Part shown: in pieces, positions 5,160 to 27,734 of the stretch
Position numbering within the stretch: position 1 is the first letter of the stretch
Layout: every line of letters starts with the position of its first letter
Assembly: GCA_019359715.1 (NCBI GenBank)
Contig: JAHHGS010000022.1
Coordinates: 62,001-126,000 of the forward strand
Direction of reading: 5' to 3'
Length of the DNA: 64,000 bases
From: Aphanocapsa sp. GSE-SYN-MK-11-07L
Lineage (GTDB): Bacteria; Cyanobacteriota; Cyanobacteriia; Thermosynechococcales; Thermosynechococcaceae
Made by a program: the position numbers and the translations under genes
Notes under the pieces: generated by a model
What the model was told of the DNA's origin: nothing
Seen by the model: the letters and a program-made list of their open reading frames with translations, nothing else
Databases searched by the model: none

Positions 5160-5264
5160 AGCTGATTATTTTTCAAGCCTCTTCTCAACCTTAGTGCTGC
5201 TGTTTGCACACACTCATTCCACTTGTTCGGTTATTTCCCTGGTTCCCAAATTCTTACTACAGCC

Positions 5265-7037
5265 ATGAATAAGAAATTAGCTCAAAGGCAAGTTTATCCA
5301 GATTTAGACTCTTCCTTAGGTGCTTCTTCACTAAATCATAAAGTTACGCAACTTCACCCTAAATTTAGTTCGCCAGCTCTGCCCTTTGAAAGTACTAGCA
5401 CTGGCAGGCTGTGCATTATCACACAATATTACCCACCAGATTATGCACCGACAGGGCAATTAATTAACGATTTAGCGAATCATTTGGGAGCTCAAGGTCA
5501 AAAGACTTATGTTTTTACAGGGCAGCCGGCTTATGCGGTTGATTGCGTTGCCCAAAAGCATGAGTATCTAAATAAAGTCACGATTCGGCGATCGCAGGCA
5601 ACTCGCTTTTTCTCCAGCCGCATTCGCCACAAACTGGTGAATGGCATGCTGTTTGTCCTGCGGGCAGGGCTTTTCATGCTCAAACAAGTTAAACATCAAG
5701 ACACCTTGCTGCTAACATCAGCTCCGCCTTTCTTGCCGATCTTGGGTTGGTTCGGAAATCTTTTGTTTGGGATTCCCTATGTCTGCCTGATTTATGATTT
5801 GTACCCAGAAGTCGTGGTCAACCTAGACGTGGCGTCTCAAACCAACCTATTGGTCAAATTTTGGGAATTCTGCAATCGCCTTACCTTTAGTCGAGCCAAG
5901 GGCATTATTGTCATGAATGGTTCTATGAAGGAGCGCATTGTCAAAAAATACCCTCAGCTACAGCAAAAAATCTCAGTTATTCATAACTGGACTGATCCAG
6001 ATAAAATTGTCCCACTTGAAAAGTCAGAAAATTGGTTTGCGCAACAGCATGGTTTGGCTGATAAGTTTACAGTGCTGTATTCAGGCAACAGTGGTCGTTG
6101 CCACGACATGGAAACAATCTTGGAGGCAGCGCTCAAATTGCGGGATGAGCCAATTCAATTTGTCTTCATTGGAGACGGAGCCAGCTATCAGACTTGTGTG
6201 AATTTTGCGAGGGAACAAGGCTTAAACAACTGTCTCTTTTTGCCTTACCAAGATCGGAGTGTTCTTCCCTACTCACTCACAGCTTGCGATGTCTCATTAG
6301 TGAGTATGAAGCAAGGCATGGAGGGAGTGGTTGCTCCCAGTAAACTTTATAGTATGTTGGCTGCTGGCCGGCCAGTGGCTGCCATTTGTGAATCTCATTC
6401 ATACCTTAATCATCTGATTAAAGACGCAAAGTGTGGTGCCACTTTTGTGAATGGCGACAGCGAAAATCTATCCCAATTTCTCCGCGCTCTGGCATCTCAA
6501 CCAAAGGTTGCCCAGCGAATGGGGCGTGCAGGCCGCGAGTATTTGGTTTCCAACTTCACGCTAGAAATTTGTGCCAAGCAGTATGCGCGGGTGCTAGGTT
6601 TGCATGAAAAGGCTAAACATGGCTTAGTTAGCCAAGCGCAGTCTTCGGCTGTCAGATTTAACCATCGCCAGAGAATTTACCGCCGACAAATTGGTCAGTT
6701 ACTCAAAGAAGCGGGATTGCTGACAGAAGTGCAGGTGAATGACATCTTAACGATGCAAAGCGGCAAGCAGCATAGTGGTCTCAAATTTGGAGAGATTGCC
6801 GTCCTCAAAGGCTGGGTCAGACCAGAAGTCGTTAACTCGATTTTGACACTGAATAAACCGATTGGTCAGCTCCTGCGGGAAGCTGGCCTACTGACAGAAG
6901 GTCAAATTAACGACATTCTAAAGACTCAAGACATTCAGCATGGTGGGCTAAGATTTGGAGAGGTTGCTGTCCTCAAAGGCTGGGTTCATCCAGACACCAT
7001 TAATTTTGTGCTCAGAAAATATGAGCCAGCTCTATGA
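5265..7037 (+). CDS. GT4 glycosyltransferase fused to duplicated MshEN-like domain
   Basis: Cytoplasmic retaining glycosyltransferase of the GT-B/GT4 type (WbuB-like), about residues 40-445, starting with LCIITQYYPPDYAPTGQL and ending with a nucleotide-sugar-binding region around GVVAPSKLYSMLAAGRPVA. Residues about 475-586 form two tandem copies of a repeat, each with two 24-residue half-motifs (IGQLLKEAGLLTE... and KFGEIAVLKGWV...). They fit the MshEN c-di-GMP-binding pattern RLGxxLxxxG(I/L)(I/V)xxxxLxxxLxxQ, though the leading Arg is kept only in the last half-motif. ATG 5265 (MNKKLAQ) was preferred over TTG 5223. It is the first gene of the polysaccharide locus, 60 bases before the Wzc-like gene. 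Confidence 0.88.
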   Translation: MNKKLAQRQVYPDLDSSLGASSLNHKVTQLHPKFSSPALPFESTSTGRLCIITQYYPPDYAPTGQLINDLANHLGAQGQKTYVFTGQPAYAVDCVAQKHEYLNKVTIRRSQATRFFSSRIRHKLVNGMLFVLRAGLFMLKQVKHQDTLLLTSAPPFLPILGWFGNLLFGIPYVCLIYDLYPEVVVNLDVASQTNLLVKFWEFCNRLTFSRAKGIIVMNGSMKERIVKKYPQLQQKISVIHNWTDPDKIVPLEKSENWFAQQHGLADKFTVLYSGNSGRCHDMETILEAALKLRDEPIQFVFIGDGASYQTCVNFAREQGLNNCLFLPYQDRSVLPYSLTACDVSLVSMKQGMEGVVAPSKLYSMLAAGRPVAAICESHSYLNHLIKDAKCGATFVNGDSENLSQFLRALASQPKVAQRMGRAGREYLVSNFTLEICAKQYARVLGLHEKAKHGLVSQAQSSAVRFNHRQRIYRRQIGQLLKEAGLLTEVQVNDILTMQSGKQHSGLKFGEIAVLKGWVRPEVVNSILTLNKPIGQLLREAGLLTEGQINDILKTQDIQHGGLRFGEVAVLKGWVHPDTINFVLRKYEPAL

Positions 7038-9522: not shown

Positions 9523-10365
9523 ATGAAAAGCCAAGATATTTCTGGTCAAGCAGAGTTAATTATAGAAGCGGGGCGGGCTGAGAAAGAGTATTGGAAAGAC
9601 TTGTGGCGCTACCGGGAGCTATTTTACTTTTTGGCCTGGCGAGATATCCTCGTCCGCTACAAACAAACCATCATTGGGATTGCTTGGGCTTTGATCCGAC
9701 CTTTCCTGACGATGGTTGTTTTTACGTTTGTATTCGGCAAATTAGCAAAACTGCCCTCGGAAGGAGCGCCTTACCCAATTTTAGTCTTCGCTGCCATGTT
9801 GCCCTGGCAATTCTTCTCGAATTCACTATCAGAGTGCAGCAACAGTCTAATTAGCAATGCCAACTTGATTTCCAAAGTTTACTTTCCGCGTTTGATTGTG
9901 CCTGTCAGCGCAGTCGTGGTTAGCTTTGTCGATTTCATGATTTCCGGGATAATCTTGATTGGGCTGATGGCTTGGTACGATTTTGTGCCTGGCTGGCGAA
10001 TTTTGACCTTGCCACTGTTTATTGTAATTGCATTTTTTGCTGCTACTGGAGCAGGGCTTTGGTTTGCAGCCCTGAACGTCGAGTATAGAGATTTTCGCTA
10101 TATTGTCCCATTTACTGTCCAGTTTGGTCTGTATATTTCACCCGTTGGATTTAGTAGTAGTATTGTGCCGGAGCAATGGCGCTTACTCTATGCTTTAAAT
10201 CCAATGGTTGGCGTAATTGATGGTTTTCGGTGGGCGATTTTAGGTGGAGAATCGACAATCTATTTACCTGGGCTTGCTCTATCTGTAGCCTTGGTCATTT
10301 TCTTACAGATAACTGGCATTTGGTACTTCCGCCGAATGGAACGGACATTTGCAGATGTAATTTAA
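9523..10365 (+). CDS. wzm: Polysaccharide ABC transporter permease (Wzm-like)
   Basis: ABC-2 type permease, 280 residues, with six predicted membrane segments. The N-terminal cytoplasmic part ELFYFLAWRDILVRYKQT is diagnostic of the Wzm/TagG/RfbD family, followed by GIAWALIRPFLTM and the conserved 'LPWQFFSNSL' stretch. It forms the membrane pore that exports undecaprenyl-linked polysaccharide, powered by the ATPase encoded next. The start of that gene follows within 15 bases of this stop, indicating one transcript. Confidence 0.95.
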   Translation: MKSQDISGQAELIIEAGRAEKEYWKDLWRYRELFYFLAWRDILVRYKQTIIGIAWALIRPFLTMVVFTFVFGKLAKLPSEGAPYPILVFAAMLPWQFFSNSLSECSNSLISNANLISKVYFPRLIVPVSAVVVSFVDFMISGIILIGLMAWYDFVPGWRILTLPLFIVIAFFAATGAGLWFAALNVEYRDFRYIVPFTVQFGLYISPVGFSSSIVPEQWRLLYALNPMVGVIDGFRWAILGGESTIYLPGLALSVALVIFLQITGIWYFRRMERTFADVI

Positions 10366-10380
10366 GTGGGAGCAACGCAG

Positions 10381-11664
10381 ATGTCTGATACTATCATTCG
10401 GGTTAAGAATTTAGGTAAGAAATACCTAATTAGTCATCAAGAAGAAGGCAAATATCGCTACAAAACCTTAAGAGATATTGTTACAGGTAGTCTTAGGTCC
10501 CTTGGCAAAAATTTGCTGCCAGCGAAGCAGGAAAAAAAGCTGCCGCTCAATCGCGAAGAATTTTGGGCTCTGAATGATGTTTCGTTTGAGATTAACCAAG
10601 GTGAAGCGATCGGCGTTATTGGTCGCAACGGGGCTGGAAAATCAACTCTCTTAAAGCTGTTAAGTCGAATTACCGAACCCTCAAGAGGTCAAATTGCCGT
10701 TAGAGGACGAGTAGCCAGTCTGTTGGAGGTAGGAACAGGCTTTCACCCTGAACTGACAGGCAGAGAAAACATCTATCTCAACGGTGCCATTTTAGGCATG
10801 GGTAGGCTGGAGATCAAGAAAAAATTCGACGAAATCGTTGCGTTTGCTGAAATTGAGCGATTTTTGGATACACCCGTTAAGCGCTACTCTTCTGGCATGT
10901 ATGTCCGTTTGGCTTTTGCGGTTGCCGCCCATCTAGAGCCAGAAATTTTGATTGTTGATGAGGTGCTAGCGGTCGGTGATGCAGCGTTTCAGAAGAAATG
11001 CTTGGGCAAAATGGGAGACGTAGCAACCAAGGAAGGGCGAACCGTTTTATTTGTTAGCCATAGTATGCAAGCGATCGCCCAGCTCACCCAACGTTCTATC
11101 CTCCTATACAAAGGCAACGTCCAGTTTGATGGCAAAACCGATCAAGCCGTTCGCTTATACATTGCTGGTCAAAAAGATGAGTCTGAGCCGCAGGGATATT
11201 ACCAAGCTCCATCTAACAAAAATGGTAATCATGTTGCTTGGGCGAAGGTGCATACCTCAGAGGGCGATGGCGTTCACTGCTGGGGGCGAGCGATCGCCTT
11301 TGAATTTGCTCTCTCCATCACTCAACCCCATGAAAGTTTGTGGTTTTCATTTCAAGTTATCAGCGCTCTTCAGCAACCGATTTCTATTTTTTGGTTTTAC
11401 GATCCGGAAGCTGCTTTTCGCCGTGAACCAGGAACATTTATCGTTCGATGCGAAATTCCTAAACTTAGGCTCTATATGGGTTCTTACACCCTAACCACCT
11501 GGTTTTCTGAGCGTCGTAGCGAAACCATGCTGGAAAACTTGCGGAATATTTGCCAGTTTGAAGTCGTCATGCATGAAATCGAGCGTCCAGAGTACCAATG
11601 GCAAGCGGACGAATGCACTTACTTAGAGGATGCATTTTGGCAATCGGCCGAAAAAATCGGGTAA
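10381..11664 (+). CDS. wzt: Polysaccharide ABC transporter ATP-binding protein with C-terminal carbohydrate-binding domain (Wzt-like)
   Basis: ATPase partner of the Wzm-like permease, 427 residues. Walker [10 protein letters not shown] (about 81-89), ABC signature in [11 protein letters not shown] (about 170) and Walker [14 protein letters not shown] (about 189) are intact. After residue 250 an extra domain of about 170 residues (from about [15 protein letters not shown]) matches the position and beta-rich character of Wzt C-terminal domains, which recognise the terminal modification of the glycan before export. ATG 10381 was chosen because GGGAG lies 8 bases upstream; the frame is open from a GTG at 10366. 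Confidence 0.94.
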
Positions 11665-21988: not shown

Positions 21989-22514
21989 TCGGGAATCAAC
22001 CAACGGAGAAATCAACATTTTTTCAGTTCATTGTGGTGATATCAATCACCGCAATGAATAAGAAATATTAAGTCGAGCGATTTTCGCTTTACGTTTTGGA
22101 AGTTCATCCGGCATAATCGACCAAGAAGTGACTTGATAACCTTACTCTCAGCACTTCAGATCTGCATCAGAGCTTGGCTCTCCTATTCAACCAAGCAACT
22201 GGAAGCATTTAGGCAATTGAGGGCGATTACTCTGAGTCAAGAAATTTTCTCCTAATGTCTTAAAATCCAAAATTTCGTTTGCGCACAGTTAGGCTGCATC
22301 ATCTCAATCTCAGATAGGTTCTGCCTTCCAGTACGAACTCTATACTGAGCAGATTATTTAGACGCTAGATGTAAATAGCTTTGTTGAGGCGCTGTTAATG
22401 CTTTTCGGCATTGATGGCTGATCTTGGCAGGCCAAGTACATCTGAACCTTACGATCAGAGCTTTGGTCGTAAGGGCTGAGCGATGTTGCCCTGTTGAATT
22501 GTAGGCGGAATTTT
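21989..22514. other. Intergenic region before giant DUF4347 gene
   Basis: About 526 bases, with the hairpin 22027-22058 near the left end and no gene. It probably contains the promoter of the giant gene. Confidence 0.5.
22027..22058. terminator. Hairpin after aminotransferase gene (possible terminator)
   Basis: Fourteen-pair stem, TTCATTGTGGTGAT against ATCACCGCAATGAA with one G-U pair, loop ATCA, 38 bases after the aminotransferase stop. No T run follows on the plus strand, so its termination role is uncertain. Confidence 0.4.
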
Positions 22515-25500
22515 ATGTTAGTTGATCCTAGTTCCTTGAGTGGTTTCCAGCTTAGTTCGGCATCCTCCTCGATCATTCCACAGACGGTTGCTTTTATTGA
22601 TGCGAATATTGCCGATGCCTCCCAGGTGATGGCTGGGGTGCAAGCAGACGTGAAAGTCTTGCTCGACCCCAGCCGCGATGGCATCGCCCAAATTACGGAA
22701 ACCCTCCAACAGTTCAATAATCTAACAGGCATCAACATTTTCTCCCACGGCAGCGTTGGACAGTTGCAGTTAGGAAGCAGTGTTCTGAGTAGCGCTTCTT
22801 TAGGGCAGTATGCAACTGAAGTTGAACGCTGGAAAGCATCCTTGAGTGCTGATGCTGACATCTGGTGCTACGGCTGCAATGTGGCAGAAGGAGAAGTGGG
22901 TCAAGCTTTCGTGCAGGGGTTAAGCAGCTTGACGGGAGCTGATATTGCTGCCTCGACCGACCTAACCGGAGCCGGAGGAGATTGGCTGCTAGAGTACGCC
23001 ACCGGCGAAATTGAGACAACCTCTCCCTTGAGCGATGCTCTAATCGAAGGCTATCAAGGGCAATTGGCGACCCTGTTCACCAGCCAAACCCCCAGCCAAC
23101 CCAACAAGACAGATGGCACGGGCAGTGCGGGCGATTACGAGTTGGGCATGCAGTTCACCAGCACCAAAGCGGGCACCCTCAATGCGATTCGCTACTACAA
23201 GGCGGCCGGTGAAACGGGGAGCCATGTCGGTAAAATCTGGTCGAGTACTGGCACGCAACTAGCACAAGTTACCTTTAGCAACGAAACCGCATCGGGATGG
23301 CAGCAGCAAGCTTTGAGTACGCCTATCGCGATCGCCGCTGGCACCACGTATATTGTGTCGGTGAACGTGAACACGCATTACGCCATTAGCCCGAATGGGT
23401 TCAACAGCCCGATCAGCAATGGCGATTTGAGGGGCAGCAATGGCGTCTTTAATCTTGCGCCTGGGTTATTCCCCACCCAGTCGTGGAACAATAGCAACTA
23501 CTTCCGAGATGTTGACTTTACCCCAAATCCGACTGGCACCAATAACGTAGGCACAGTGGGTGTCAGTGGAACACCGACCCAAAACCAAACCCTGACGGCC
23601 AATGTCGCAGATGCGAATGGATTAACTGGCGCCACGATTAACTACCAGTGGCAGCAGCTTAGTGGCGGCACTTGGAGCAATATTAGCGGTGCGACTGCCC
23701 GCACCTTGACGCTGCAGCAAGCTCAGGTAGGGCGACAGGTGCGAGTCAATGCCACCTATACGGATGCGTTGGGCACTAGTGAGAATATCTTCAGCCCCGC
23801 TACAACGGCGATCGCCAACGTCAATGATGCGGGAGTCGTTGCGATCGCTGGCACGCCAGCCCAAAACCAAACTTTAACGGCGAATGTAGCAGATGTCGAT
23901 GGGCTAACCGGCGTCACAATCAGCTATCAATGGCAGAGCAGCACAAACGGTACCACTTGGAGCAATATTAGCGGTGCGACTGGGCAAAACTTAGCCCTCG
24001 ACAGTAGCTATGTCGGGCAGCAAGTAAGGATAAGTGCTACCTACACTGACGTCTTGGGGGGAAGCGAAAATATTTTGAGTCCGGCCAGTAGCACTATCAC
24101 AGCCCCTGTCCAGACACAGAGTTTATTTTCACCAACCACAACTCCGGCGCTACTCAATGAGACGGATGGAGCGGGTAGTGCCGGTGACTATGAACTTGGG
24201 ATGGAGTTCAGAACTTCTAAGTCTGGCAAAATTAACGCAATTCGCTATTTCAAGTCCCCCAACGAAACGGGCAGCCATACTGGCCGGATCTGGTCAAATA
24301 CAGGTGAATTGTTAGCCAGTGTGGCCTTCACGAACGAAACAGCCTCAGGTTGGCAGGAGCAAGCGTTAGCAACCTCATTAGCTATCAACGCCAACACGAC
24401 CTACATCGTTTCTGTTAACACAAACAGCTATTATGTCTCTACAAGCAATGGGTTAGCGGCAACAGTCACTAACGGTAACATCAGTGCTATTGCTGACGGA
24501 AGTAACGGAGTTTTCAACCCCAATCCTAGCGCTTTCCCAACCCAATCTTGGCAAAACTCTAACTATTTCCGAGATATCGTTTTTGCGGCCAATCCACCAG
24601 CTGCAAATATTCCCGGTACAGTTGCGCTGAACGGAACAGCAACAGAAAATCAAACCTTGACCGCCAATGTTAGCGATGGTAATGGCACAACTGGAGTCAC
24701 GATCAATTACCAGTGGCAGCAACTGAATGGCACTACCTGGACGGATATTAGCGGGGCGACGGCTCAAACCCTAACCTTGGGTAATGCTCAGTCGAGCAAG
24801 CAAGTGCGGGTAAGAGCCACCTACACTGATAGCGACGGTAACAACGAAAATATCTTCAGTGCTGCTACTACTGCGGTCGTCAACGTCAATGATGTAGGCG
24901 CGATCGCCGTTCGAGGCACAACAGGCATCGGCGAAGTCTTAACGGCAAACGTGATTGATGGCGATGGATTTACAACCGTCAACTACCAATGGCAGCAATT
25001 GAATGGCAGCACTTGGAGCAATATTAGTGGCGCTACTGGGCGATCCCTAGCCTTGACCAATGCTTTACTTGGCAAGCAACTGCGCGTAAGTGCCAGCTAC
25101 ACCGATAGCTTTGGCAGCAGCGAAAATGTCACGAGTTCTACGACCAGCCCAGTTGTGACAACCTATGAAACCGTCTTTTCACTGGCAGATATGCCTAACT
25201 TCACCAATATTACTGATGGAGTTGGGGTGTCCTATGAGCTAGGTCTCAAATTCAGAAGCGTCACAGCAGGTGTGGTTCAAGCAATTCGCTACTGGAAGGC
25301 TCCTAGCGAAACAGGCACCCATGTTGGAAAAATTTGGTCGTCTACAGGGCAGTTGCTGGCAAGTGTCACTTTTACGAATGAAACTTCTTACGGTTGGCAA
25401 GAGCAGGCATTAGCAACTCCATTCCGCATTCAAGCTAATACGACCTACACTATTTCAGTCAATGCCAACAGCTATTATGCTTTTACCTCTAACCGACTAA

Positions 25501-27734
25501 CCAGTGTAGTTGATAGTGGTGATATGACCACTGTCTCCAATGGCGGGAACGGTGGAGGCGGTGGTGTGTTGGGTTCGATCAATGCGCTACCGACTCAATC
25601 GTTCCAAAACTCAAACTACTATCGCGATCTGGTGTTTGCAGCCGATCAGCCCAGCGGCAACGATTTAGGAGTCGTCTCGACGAGCGGTAGCGTCACTGAG
25701 AATCAGACCCTGACTGCAAATGTGGCTGACGCTGATGGATTGAGCGGCGTGACGTTTAATTATCAATGGCAGCAGTTTCAAGATAATGCCTGGGTTAATA
25801 TTGCCGGAGCAACCCAGCGCACCTTCAAACTTGGGGATGACCAAGTAGGCAAGCAGATTCGAGTCAGGGCAACCTATGTCGATGCCTTGGGCACCTACGA
25901 AAATAGGCTGAGTGTGGCAACAGCGGCAGTGACTAATGTGAATGATGTTGGGAATGCCGTGCTGCGGGGCAGTGCAGTGGTTGGCCAAGTCCTGAAGGCA
26001 ATTGTCTTAGACTCCGATGGACTGACAAATGTACTGATTAACTACCAGTGGCAGCAGTTTGTCAATAATGCCTGGACGAATATTGCTGGTGCGGTTGGGC
26101 AAGCCTTGACGCTGGGTGCTTCCCTGGCAGGCAGACAGATTAGAGCTTTTGCTTCTTACACTGACAACAACAATACTTTTGAGAGTCTCTTTACCTTTGG
26201 GACAACAATCGGCACTCAAAACCGGATTGTAATTGAGAATCAAAAGCAAGGCTCGACAGGTTGGAAAATTACCAATCAGGCGACTGATAGCCAAGTGGCA
26301 GGCTATGCTGATGCCACCAGTGTGAATGCTGGTGAAACAGTTGGTCTGAAAGTCTCCTTGGGGCAAACTGGTACGTTCAAAATTGATACCTATCGTCTGG
26401 GCTGGTACGGTGGGGCTGGTGGGCGACTGATGGACAGTAGCGGCACGTTGAATGGCTTTACCCAGGCTGGTTTTACAGTTGATCCAACCACCAGAATGGT
26501 TGAGACTAATTGGCAAACTTCTTATAACCTACAGGTGAGTAGCGACTGGGTGAGTGGGCTTTATCTGGCCAAGGTAACACTGACAACAGGTCCGAACGCA
26601 GGCAAGCAAACTCAAATTTGGTTTGTCGTTCGCAATGACTTCCAACCCGCAGCGATCGGCTTCAACAATGCCTTCAGTACAATGGCAGCCTACAACAACT
26701 ATGGCGGCTACAGCTTGTACGATTTCAACAGTAATAATAGTCAACGAGCCTACAAGGTTTCTTACGATCGCCCCTTCGCCCAATCAAATGACCAATCTGG
26801 TGAAGGCAGCAACAATGTAATGACTTGGGAATACAACATGATCCGTTGGCAAGAATCCCAAGGATACGATGTCTCGTATTTTACCAACACTGATCTAACG
26901 ATCAATCCACTGCAACTCCACTCTTACAATGTCTACGAGTCGGTAGGCCACGACGAATACTGGTCGATGGAAGAGCGCAACAATATCGAGGATGCGCGGG
27001 ACTCGTTGACCCCGGTCAACATCGCAATTTTCTCCGCGAATACAGGCTACTGGCGGGTGCGGTACGAAGATTCTAGCTCTGGTCAAGACAATCGTGTAAT
27101 AGTTGCCTACAAAGACACATCTGGGGTAGGCAGTGGGGTTGCACTCGACCCAATTGCCCAAACGAATCCTTACGAAGCAACAACTACTTTCCGTAGCCCT
27201 GAGCTGAATCGACCTGAAAACGCCTTATTAGGGGTTATGTACACTGGCGATATTGGTGCGACGGGTCAATTCTACGGCGGTTTTGACTATGTGGTTTCTA
27301 ATAGTTCCGATTCTTACTTTGCCAATACTGGCCTCCAAAATGGCGACTCATTGCGGGGATTGGTCGGCTACGAGTGGGATTCAGTCACAACTGGCTTCTG
27401 CTGTACGCAATGTCGGCAGGGCAGTGGGATTGTTAATAACGGTCATACGCCGCTTAACTTAGTCGTTTTGTCTGGATCGGCCGTTACTCCTGTTGGTGGT
27501 TTGCCAGTCTTGCCGCCGGGCACAGACACTAATATCTCAAACTCGATTCGCTATACAGCCGGTAGTGGAGCTGAAGTCTTCAATACTGGCTCTATTCAAT
27601 GGATGTGGGGATTAGACAGCTATGGACTAGATGATCCACGCACTGATATTCGGGCCCAGCAGATTGCCACCAATGTGTTGACCAGGATGGGGGCAAGACC
27701 TCAAACTCCCTCTTCTGGGATTGTTCTAGCTTGA
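22515..27734 (+). CDS. Giant secreted-type protein: DUF4347, triplicated DUF4082-Ig-Ig, dimethylformamidase-beta-like C-terminus
   Basis: 1739 residues from ATG 22515 (frame open to a TTG at 22494). About 1-175 is DUF4347, with a conserved His (IFSHGS) and Cys (CYGCNVA). A three-domain unit then occurs three times. DUF4082 modules lie at about 187-338, 536-694 and 886-1042 (YELGM/YELGL start, NSNYFRD or NSNYYRD end). Each is followed by two Ig-like repeats of about 90 residues starting TLTANVxDxxG (or a variant) with xYQWQ, at about 348-529, 699-879 and 1051-1232. About 1236-1739 resembles the C-terminal domain of N,N-dimethylformamidase beta subunits (FRLGWYGG-like FKIDTYRLGWYGG, GHDEYWSMEERN). 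No classical signal peptide is seen. It sits amid polysaccharide genes, suggesting a surface protein. Confidence 0.9.
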   Translation: MLVDPSSLSGFQLSSASSSIIPQTVAFIDANIADASQVMAGVQADVKVLLDPSRDGIAQITETLQQFNNLTGINIFSHGSVGQLQLGSSVLSSASLGQYATEVERWKASLSADADIWCYGCNVAEGEVGQAFVQGLSSLTGADIAASTDLTGAGGDWLLEYATGEIETTSPLSDALIEGYQGQLATLFTSQTPSQPNKTDGTGSAGDYELGMQFTSTKAGTLNAIRYYKAAGETGSHVGKIWSSTGTQLAQVTFSNETASGWQQQALSTPIAIAAGTTYIVSVNVNTHYAISPNGFNSPISNGDLRGSNGVFNLAPGLFPTQSWNNSNYFRDVDFTPNPTGTNNVGTVGVSGTPTQNQTLTANVADANGLTGATINYQWQQLSGGTWSNISGATARTLTLQQAQVGRQVRVNATYTDALGTSENIFSPATTAIANVNDAGVVAIAGTPAQNQTLTANVADVDGLTGVTISYQWQSSTNGTTWSNISGATGQNLALDSSYVGQQVRISATYTDVLGGSENILSPASSTITAPVQTQSLFSPTTTPALLNETDGAGSAGDYELGMEFRTSKSGKINAIRYFKSPNETGSHTGRIWSNTGELLASVAFTNETASGWQEQALATSLAINANTTYIVSVNTNSYYVSTSNGLAATVTNGNISAIADGSNGVFNPNPSAFPTQSWQNSNYFRDIVFAANPPAANIPGTVALNGTATENQTLTANVSDGNGTTGVTINYQWQQLNGTTWTDISGATAQTLTLGNAQSSKQVRVRATYTDSDGNNENIFSAATTAVVNVNDVGAIAVRGTTGIGEVLTANVIDGDGFTTVNYQWQQLNGSTWSNISGATGRSLALTNALLGKQLRVSASYTDSFGSSENVTSSTTSPVVTTYETVFSLADMPNFTNITDGVGVSYELGLKFRSVTAGVVQAIRYWKAPSETGTHVGKIWSSTGQLLASVTFTNETSYGWQEQALATPFRIQANTTYTISVNANSYYAFTSNRLTSVVDSGDMTTVSNGGNGGGGGVLGSINALPTQSFQNSNYYRDLVFAADQPSGNDLGVVSTSGSVTENQTLTANVADADGLSGVTFNYQWQQFQDNAWVNIAGATQRTFKLGDDQVGKQIRVRATYVDALGTYENRLSVATAAVTNVNDVGNAVLRGSAVVGQVLKAIVLDSDGLTNVLINYQWQQFVNNAWTNIAGAVGQALTLGASLAGRQIRAFASYTDNNNTFESLFTFGTTIGTQNRIVIENQKQGSTGWKITNQATDSQVAGYADATSVNAGETVGLKVSLGQTGTFKIDTYRLGWYGGAGGRLMDSSGTLNGFTQAGFTVDPTTRMVETNWQTSYNLQVSSDWVSGLYLAKVTLTTGPNAGKQTQIWFVVRNDFQPAAIGFNNAFSTMAAYNNYGGYSLYDFNSNNSQRAYKVSYDRPFAQSNDQSGEGSNNVMTWEYNMIRWQESQGYDVSYFTNTDLTINPLQLHSYNVYESVGHDEYWSMEERNNIEDARDSLTPVNIAIFSANTGYWRVRYEDSSSGQDNRVIVAYKDTSGVGSGVALDPIAQTNPYEATTTFRSPELNRPENALLGVMYTGDIGATGQFYGGFDYVVSNSSDSYFANTGLQNGDSLRGLVGYEWDSVTTGFCCTQCRQGSGIVNNGHTPLNLVVLSGSAVTPVGGLPVLPPGTDTNISNSIRYTAGSGAEVFNTGSIQWMWGLDSYGLDDPRTDIRAQQIATNVLTRMGARPQTPSSGIVLA

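Follow-up and report, generated by a model that had tools for sequence, protein, structure and literature searches.

A GT4 glycosyltransferase with a duplicated MshEN-related tail at the head of a cyanobacterial polysaccharide locus

The fusion of a glycosyltransferase (GT) to MshEN, the c-di-GMP receptor domain, is already known. In E. coli the glycosyltransferase NfrB carries a C-terminal MshEN, which binds c-di-GMP with a Kd of 1.0 uM and is required for function (PMC8669469), and PMC5013675 states the MshEN-glycosyltransferase fusion in general. The latter source gives the strict MshEN consensus as RLGxx(LVI)(LVI)xxG(LVI)(LVI)xxxxLxxxLxxQ and reports what changes to V. cholerae MshE cost: at most about fivefold for single changes of Arg9 or Gln32 and more than tenfold for changed hydrophobic residues, while G11L/G40I abolished ligand stabilisation. 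It also describes XpsE, an MshEN relative in which binding is lost and both ligand-site glycines are gone, and binding of cGAMP by V. cholerae MshEN, less strong than that of c-di-GMP. Wang et al. used cce_1044 as a cyanobacterial query and give it by name in their main text.

Here we describe a GT4 enzyme with a doubled and divergent version of this module. It is encoded in the window, the whole stretch of 64,000 nucleotides from Aphanocapsa sp. GSE-SYN-MK-11-07L that was analysed. Given that the MshEN-GT fusion itself is known from NfrB, what appears new is this doubled GT4 architecture and the way the module recurs in cyanobacteria, on priming, GT26 and GT4 enzymes and on a sugar-nucleotide step. 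Among titles and abstracts of open-licence PMC papers, none was found that deals with doubled MshEN modules on polysaccharide enzymes of cyanobacteria; the supplementary domain-partner tables of PMC5013675 may include some.

The GT4 gene and its locus

The gene, its parts and its immediate neighbours are the following (residue numbers refer to the 590-aa form unless stated otherwise).

5265-7037, plus strand: GT4 glycosyltransferase gene with a sensor-like tail, 590 aa from the ATG at 5265
5400-6596, plus strand: GT4 (WcaI-like) catalytic part, with PF00534, PF13692 and PF13439 above cut-off and a high-confidence structure prediction
6597-6686, plus strand: linker, partly helical by prediction, low confidence
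6687-6854, plus strand: pair A, half-motifs 6687-6758 and 6783-6854, spacer 8 aa
6858-7022, plus strand: pair B, half-motifs 6858-6929 and 6951-7022, spacer 7 aa
7098-9392, plus strand: next gene, Wzz-type chain-length determinant with a tyrosine-autokinase-like ATPase part (Pfam/NCBIfam)
9523-10365, plus strand: ABC-2 exporter membrane subunit (PF01061)
10366-11664, plus strand: ABC exporter ATPase with an extra C-terminal part (PF00005 at residues 69-200 of 432)

An alternative TTG start at 5223 would lengthen the open frame to 5223-7037 (plus strand, 604 aa), and the exact start is unproven because most other GTs are homologous only after residue 40. The frame is intact and matches the Pfam families PF00534 (Glycos_transf_1, 50.3 bits), PF13692 (31.9 bits) and PF13439 (Glyco_transf_4, 29.7 bits), all above cut-off, which bears out the earlier note in calling the protein a GT4 enzyme. 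Its catalytic part is 46-54% identical to the 30 other sequences of its alignment. In a full-length model built from 31 sequences (mean pLDDT 83.6), the alpha/beta GT part is well predicted, the AF2 blocks of the catalytic part lying mostly at pLDDT 85-98; it is followed by a low-confidence linker and then by the same eight terminal helices as in a model of the tail by itself. PilZ was unmatched in the protein by the Pfam/NCBIfam scan, as had been claimed.

That the gene heads a polysaccharide locus is likewise upheld, by the Wzz/autokinase-like gene and the ABC-2 exporter pair directly downstream. Beyond the ABC pair, the same strand encodes a hexapeptide-repeat protein, a GFO/IDH/MocA oxidoreductase, a DegT aminotransferase, a formyltransferase-like protein and an epimerase (Pfam), together with two frames that match no Pfam family. 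Judged by these gene families, the locus is of the exopolysaccharide or O-antigen type. By eye, open frames on to 40 kb resemble further glycosyltransferases, and a 1746-aa frame at 22494-27734 contains several long, similar internal stretches. The genome itself is that of a cyanobacterium (5.1 Mb, 99.5% complete), in which profile scans matched GGDEF 20 times and PilZ once.

A duplicated tail related to MshEN

The tail consists of four 24-residue half-motifs, whose borders within 6687-7022 we could confirm. The NCBIfam model NF053729 (c-di-GMP_motif, MshE-related) matches it in two stretches, with 58.7 bits (E 3.5e-16) in the whole protein and 66.0 bits (E 1.9e-18) in the tail alone against a curated cut-off of 38, although the single stretches score 36.4 and 33.8 bits in the genome scan, slightly below that cut-off. 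An independent pair HMM, built from other genomes with the window left out, scores both pairs (A 53.3, B 66.6 bits), so that a duplicated MshE-related repeat, as first suggested, is present. The resemblance to MshEN proper is looser than the earlier note had it. Each unit does hold two 24-residue half-motifs, but the spacers are 8 and 7 residues against 5 in V. cholerae MshE; and where NF053729 exceeds its cut-off, Pfam MshEN (PF05157, gathering cut-off 23.1 bits) leaves the tail unmatched at E up to 10, all of its genome-scan matches lying outside the window. A PDB sequence search retrieved Thermus PilF at E 1.5e-5 and MshE weakly, at E 0.2.

Other repeat families fared less well. FumaraseC_C and DUF4388 stayed below their Pfam cut-offs (24.9 bits against 32.5 and 18.0 bits against 25, respectively), and the fumarase/aspartase fold scored lower in VIA (Z 5.0-6.5) than MshE/PilF (Z 9.1-9.7), for which reason we read it as a like small helical arrangement in another family.

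The two pairs are a young in-gene tandem copy. They are 72% identical in DNA and 69% in protein, the most alike among 47 double modules (26-58% protein identity in the other 46), and the step between the pairs is shortened in comparison with other double modules. Their DNA alignment scores 171, against a mean of 47.7 for codon-shuffled sequences (s.d. 6.8, maximum 72, 200 shuffles). Most of the changes that separate the repeats sit at third codon positions (10, 10 and 21 by position), and dN is 0.215 with dS 1.10, a dN/dS of about 0.2 over 49 codons. Thus, both repeats have apparently been under selection at the protein level.

How much of the ligand site is left? The strict consensus fits none of the four half-motifs, and a relaxed form fits two. 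In both pairs, the places of Gly11, Gly18, Gly40 and Gly47 (V. cholerae MshE numbering) hold Gly throughout, and the six guanine-cage sites that form two hydrophobic triangles (Leu10/25/29/39/54/58) hold solely I, V, L or F. The places of Arg9/Arg38 and Gln32/Gln61 are kept only in part, being Q,K and Q,N in pair A and P,R and Q,Y in pair B; the half-motifs accordingly begin with Q, K, P and R, which confirms that Arg is absent from three of them, and end with Q, N, Q and Y. These residues can be set against an alignment of 37 double modules, the window included (the A4 profile); three of the 47 (L119, L126, L147) are spaced differently and were excluded from this alignment. Half 1 most often begins with Pro (17/36 other modules; the Gln of the window occurs in 0/36), as does half 3 (29/36), while halves 2 and 4 begin with Arg or Lys in 29/36 and 32/36. 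The last residue is Gln in 34/36 for half 1 and in 36/36 for half 3, against 0/36 for half 2, which ends in Trp, Leu or others, and 1/36 for half 4, which ends in Leu and others. The even half-motifs of the subfamily carry a signature of their own, and it is by lacking the last Gln in both pairs that the subfamily stands apart. The suggestion drawn from the loss of Arg needs amending: Arg is indeed absent from three halves, but this is no sign of decay in the present copy, Pro and Lys being usual in the subfamily and only the Gln of half 1 out of the ordinary. At the Leu58 place of the first pair, 33 of 36 relatives have Ala or Val, which suggests weak or no binding there, perhaps poorer than in the window protein, where Leu is kept. 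Taken with the published mutant costs, the kept glycines and cage and the altered Arg and Gln places lead us to predict that binding is reduced, not abolished.

The tail model, moderate in quality (two sequences, one of them a homologue; mean pLDDT 72.6, pTM 0.44), has eight helices in the expected order. In Foldseek, the c-di-GMP complexes of PilF-GSPIIB and of MshE take the leading rows, with probabilities of 0.72-0.98 across crystal forms and E-values that are all above 0.5 (about 1-5 for the PilF/MshE rows); most of these rows have an rmsd of 1.2-1.9 A over 54-63 aligned columns. In VIA, pair B of the model matches MshE 5htl_B with Z 9.7 (rmsd 1.6 over 59 residues) and crystal forms of PilF-GSPIIB with Z 9.1-9.6, ahead of aspartase, the first unrelated fold, at Z 6.5, in a range (under about 13) that is common among helical bundles. 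The weight of the fold match comes from MshE and PilF filling the top rows and from the sequence match. Pair B is predicted to adopt the MshEN_N fold.

The tail is likely a sensor derived from a c-di-GMP receptor. By analogy with NfrB, it may sense c-di-GMP and tune the GT, a reading to which we give an even chance. In our proposal, a WcaI-like GT4 from a cyanobacterial exopolysaccharide locus gained two MshE-related pairs at its C-terminus, a module that would be a cyanobacterial variant of MshEN. Each pair would form a four-helix unit in which a single c-di-GMP is gripped by the backbones of two glycines and by two hydrophobic cages, giving two ligands per protein. As c-di-GMP rises, binding would reposition the GT or alter its oligomeric state; the bound ligand would then raise, or less likely lower, its activity, and polymer synthesis would thereby be tied to the surface-living state. 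Binding, the direction of control and the two ligands are all what we infer. The coupling to c-di-GMP is plausible because the genome encodes many GGDEF proteins besides its one PilZ, because the best fold matches are c-di-GMP complexes and because the glycines and hydrophobic sites are kept. The module could instead bind another nucleotide or related small ligand, such as the cGAMP that V. cholerae MshEN also accepts more weakly (PMC5013675), and the altered Gln and Arg places could have shifted its specificity; yet there is no sequence sign of such a ligand, and the GGDEF scan makes c-di-GMP enzymes plentiful in the same genome, so that we hold this to be very improbable.

The double module on polysaccharide enzymes

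Among orthologous GTs, the tail is rare. Homologues of the full protein (E 1e-20 or better) occur in 128 of 386 genomes of the phylum, and among the matches listed the alignment runs through the tail only in the own genome and in G112. Out of 165 confirmed relatives in the genome collection, 80 loci were kept, and the pair HMM finds the tail in one of them, L185, on a contig of Oscillatoriales cyanobacterium M59_W2019_021 (G112; L015, L152 and L185 are one contig). It follows that the tail is dispensable for sugar transfer as such. In a GT tree of 114 rows, the window and L185 are not joined, with weak support. The two tailed GT4s may be separate, recent fusions, but a single origin would also be compatible with the weakly supported branches. 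On L152, which extends further along this contig, a Poly_export/SLBB gene comes next after the fused GT, so both fused GT4s adjoin export genes, the window protein lying by its ABC-2 exporter.

The same collection includes GT orthologues in frames of ~850-870 aa (L049/L251, L051, L258), grouped in the tree, with roughly 400 extra residues that are different from the module. It also includes L259, from a contig labelled Tatlockia sp. (a Legionellaceae MAG), whose GT is nested among cyanobacterial GTs; this contig is likely mis-binned.

One could ask whether the tail is simply a young fusion without a role, retained by chance. Its rarity among orthologous GTs would fit, as would the tree, in which the two fusions stand apart and may be recent. 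On the other hand, the repeats differ with a dN/dS of about 0.2, all four half-motifs are intact and the module has repeatedly been joined to one kind of enzyme, which makes this explanation very improbable.

On other proteins, the module is common. The tail alone matches 50 of 386 genomes of the phylum and all 29 of the order (single-pair matches counted), and its best matches are free two-pair proteins of about 190-290 aa (L098-L105). With the A4 profile, a double module is found in at least 72 of 388 genomes of the class; this is a lower bound, since only the best candidates per genome were scored and the own genome, a known positive, scored 0 (11 of its 40 candidates scored).

To see what the module is fused to, we took all A4-profile rows with an open frame of at least 300 aa, the window excluded. 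Of these 24 frames, 11 are GT26 (WecG/TagA/CpsF), two are Bac_transf priming transferases, two are GT4 (L142 and the G112 protein) and one is a DegT aminotransferase; polysaccharide or sugar enzymes thus make up 16 of the 24 in raw count. The rest are TPR-like (3), pentapeptide (2), redox-type (2) and FHA (1) proteins. Some assignments rest on BLAST of the masked remainder: L113, L148 and L149 to GT26, L116 and L290 to TPR-like, L295 to L294 and L299 to L298, the Pfam scan giving no family for L299. The NCBIfam c-di-GMP motif was above cut-off in all eight proteins tried: L112 and L297 (GT26), L131 (DegT), L141 (priming), L142 and L152 (GT4), and L110 and L100 (free). Polysaccharide enzymes repeatedly carry the double module as an add-on, a pattern that the earlier note had not seen, and GT26 with a C-terminal double module is a recurrent architecture in the sampled cyanobacteria. 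Single genomes carry it on several enzymes: G153 on two GT26, one GT4 and one priming transferase, and G444 on two GT26 and one priming transferase.

The arrangement varies with the partner. The module is C-terminal on GT26 in L112, L113, L140, L146, L148, L149, L291, L292, L296 and L297, and also in L298 (pyridine-nucleotide oxidoreductase-like) and the related L299; it is N-terminal on Bac_transf in two different genomes (L141:1759-2868 and L293:2124-3233). L109 has one pair by HMM, and the epimerase L177 carries a single pair. Single-pair families of 335-470 aa, mostly from the window's family, were also seen (L123, L153-L155, L157-L162 and L164; and L139, L144, L163, L165-L167 and L169-L173), with no convincing Pfam family in the members scanned.

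A sensor would be expected to have frequent polysaccharide-enzyme partners, as the count shows, and so would a scaffold. The module could be free of ligand and dock or oligomerise the enzymes of polysaccharide assembly, perhaps with a free double-module partner of ~200 aa. The second Gln and the odd-half Arg are uniformly lost, the even halves have a signature of their own and the module occurs at various steps within a single type of pathway, all of which would suit such a role. So would its joining to TPR, pentapeptide and FHA domains, which often mediate contacts between proteins. There is also a precedent in XpsE, the non-binding MshEN relative (PMC5013675); however, XpsE lost both ligand-site glycines, whereas the module keeps the glycines and hydrophobic cage that matter most for binding. 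Nor is a free double partner seen in the own genome, where the scan found no second gene with two NF053729 matches. With the second Gln missing across the subfamily and protein-contact parts among the partners, we regard docking as the main rival to sensing, a serious possibility that nonetheless falls short of an even chance. Several points speak against sensing: no half-motif fits the strict consensus, the final Gln is lost, relatives often have Ala or Val at the Leu58 place of the first pair, Pfam MshEN is silent, the Foldseek E-values are high and the tail model is moderate, and only one of 80 loci is tailed.

To our knowledge, the switching of cyanobacterial heteropolysaccharide synthesis is a largely open question. 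We tentatively envision, with somewhat less than even confidence, that cyanobacteria use one plug-in module, the divergent doubled MshEN, to make the exopolysaccharide assembly line (priming transferase, GT26, GT4 and sugar-nucleotide enzymes) follow one signal, either c-di-GMP or a scaffold that these enzymes share, and that the GT of the window is a recent recruit whose sensor was re-duplicated. Recurring as it does on priming, GT26 and GT4 enzymes, the module would offer a direct handle on this synthesis: one small domain, one ligand. If it binds a ligand, many enzymes of biofilm and sheath formation could be read as targets; if it is ligand-free, it would mark an assembly platform for polymer synthesis.

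Comparison with known systems

The catalytic part is closest in kind to the WcaI family (NF007640), which aligns with residues 63-449 of the 604-aa frame; the score of 136.7 bits lies below the cut-off of 276, and the WcaI model lacks the tail. In overall design the protein resembles NfrB of E. coli, which likewise joins a GT to an MshE-related domain at its C-terminus and belongs to an exopolysaccharide system (PMC8669469). However, NfrB is a GT2 enzyme with two predicted membrane helices as the joint and a fully conserved MshEN, whereas the window protein is a GT4 with two divergent pairs, and the NfrB model NF008411 matches the tail weakly (13.8 bits against a cut-off of 1170).

With MshE of V. 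cholerae and PilF of T. thermophilus (PDB 5htl, 8pdk), each pair shares the two 24-residue half-motifs, the four-helix fold by prediction, the glycines and the hydrophobic cage. It departs from them in its spacers (8 and 7 instead of 5) and in lacking three of the four Arg and the Gln that closes each pair; the pairs stand in tandem, and no MshEN_C part is seen. The free double-module proteins (L098-L105, L110) have the four half-motifs in the window's order and share the even-half signature, but they lack an enzyme part and have a longer step between the pairs. Finally, an MshE-related unit on an EPS protein is also found in the chain-length tyrosine kinase EpsG (TIGR03029), positions 4-54 of which the tail matches. 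In EpsG the unit sits on the kinase itself, whereas in the window it sits on the GT, with a kinase-like gene next downstream.
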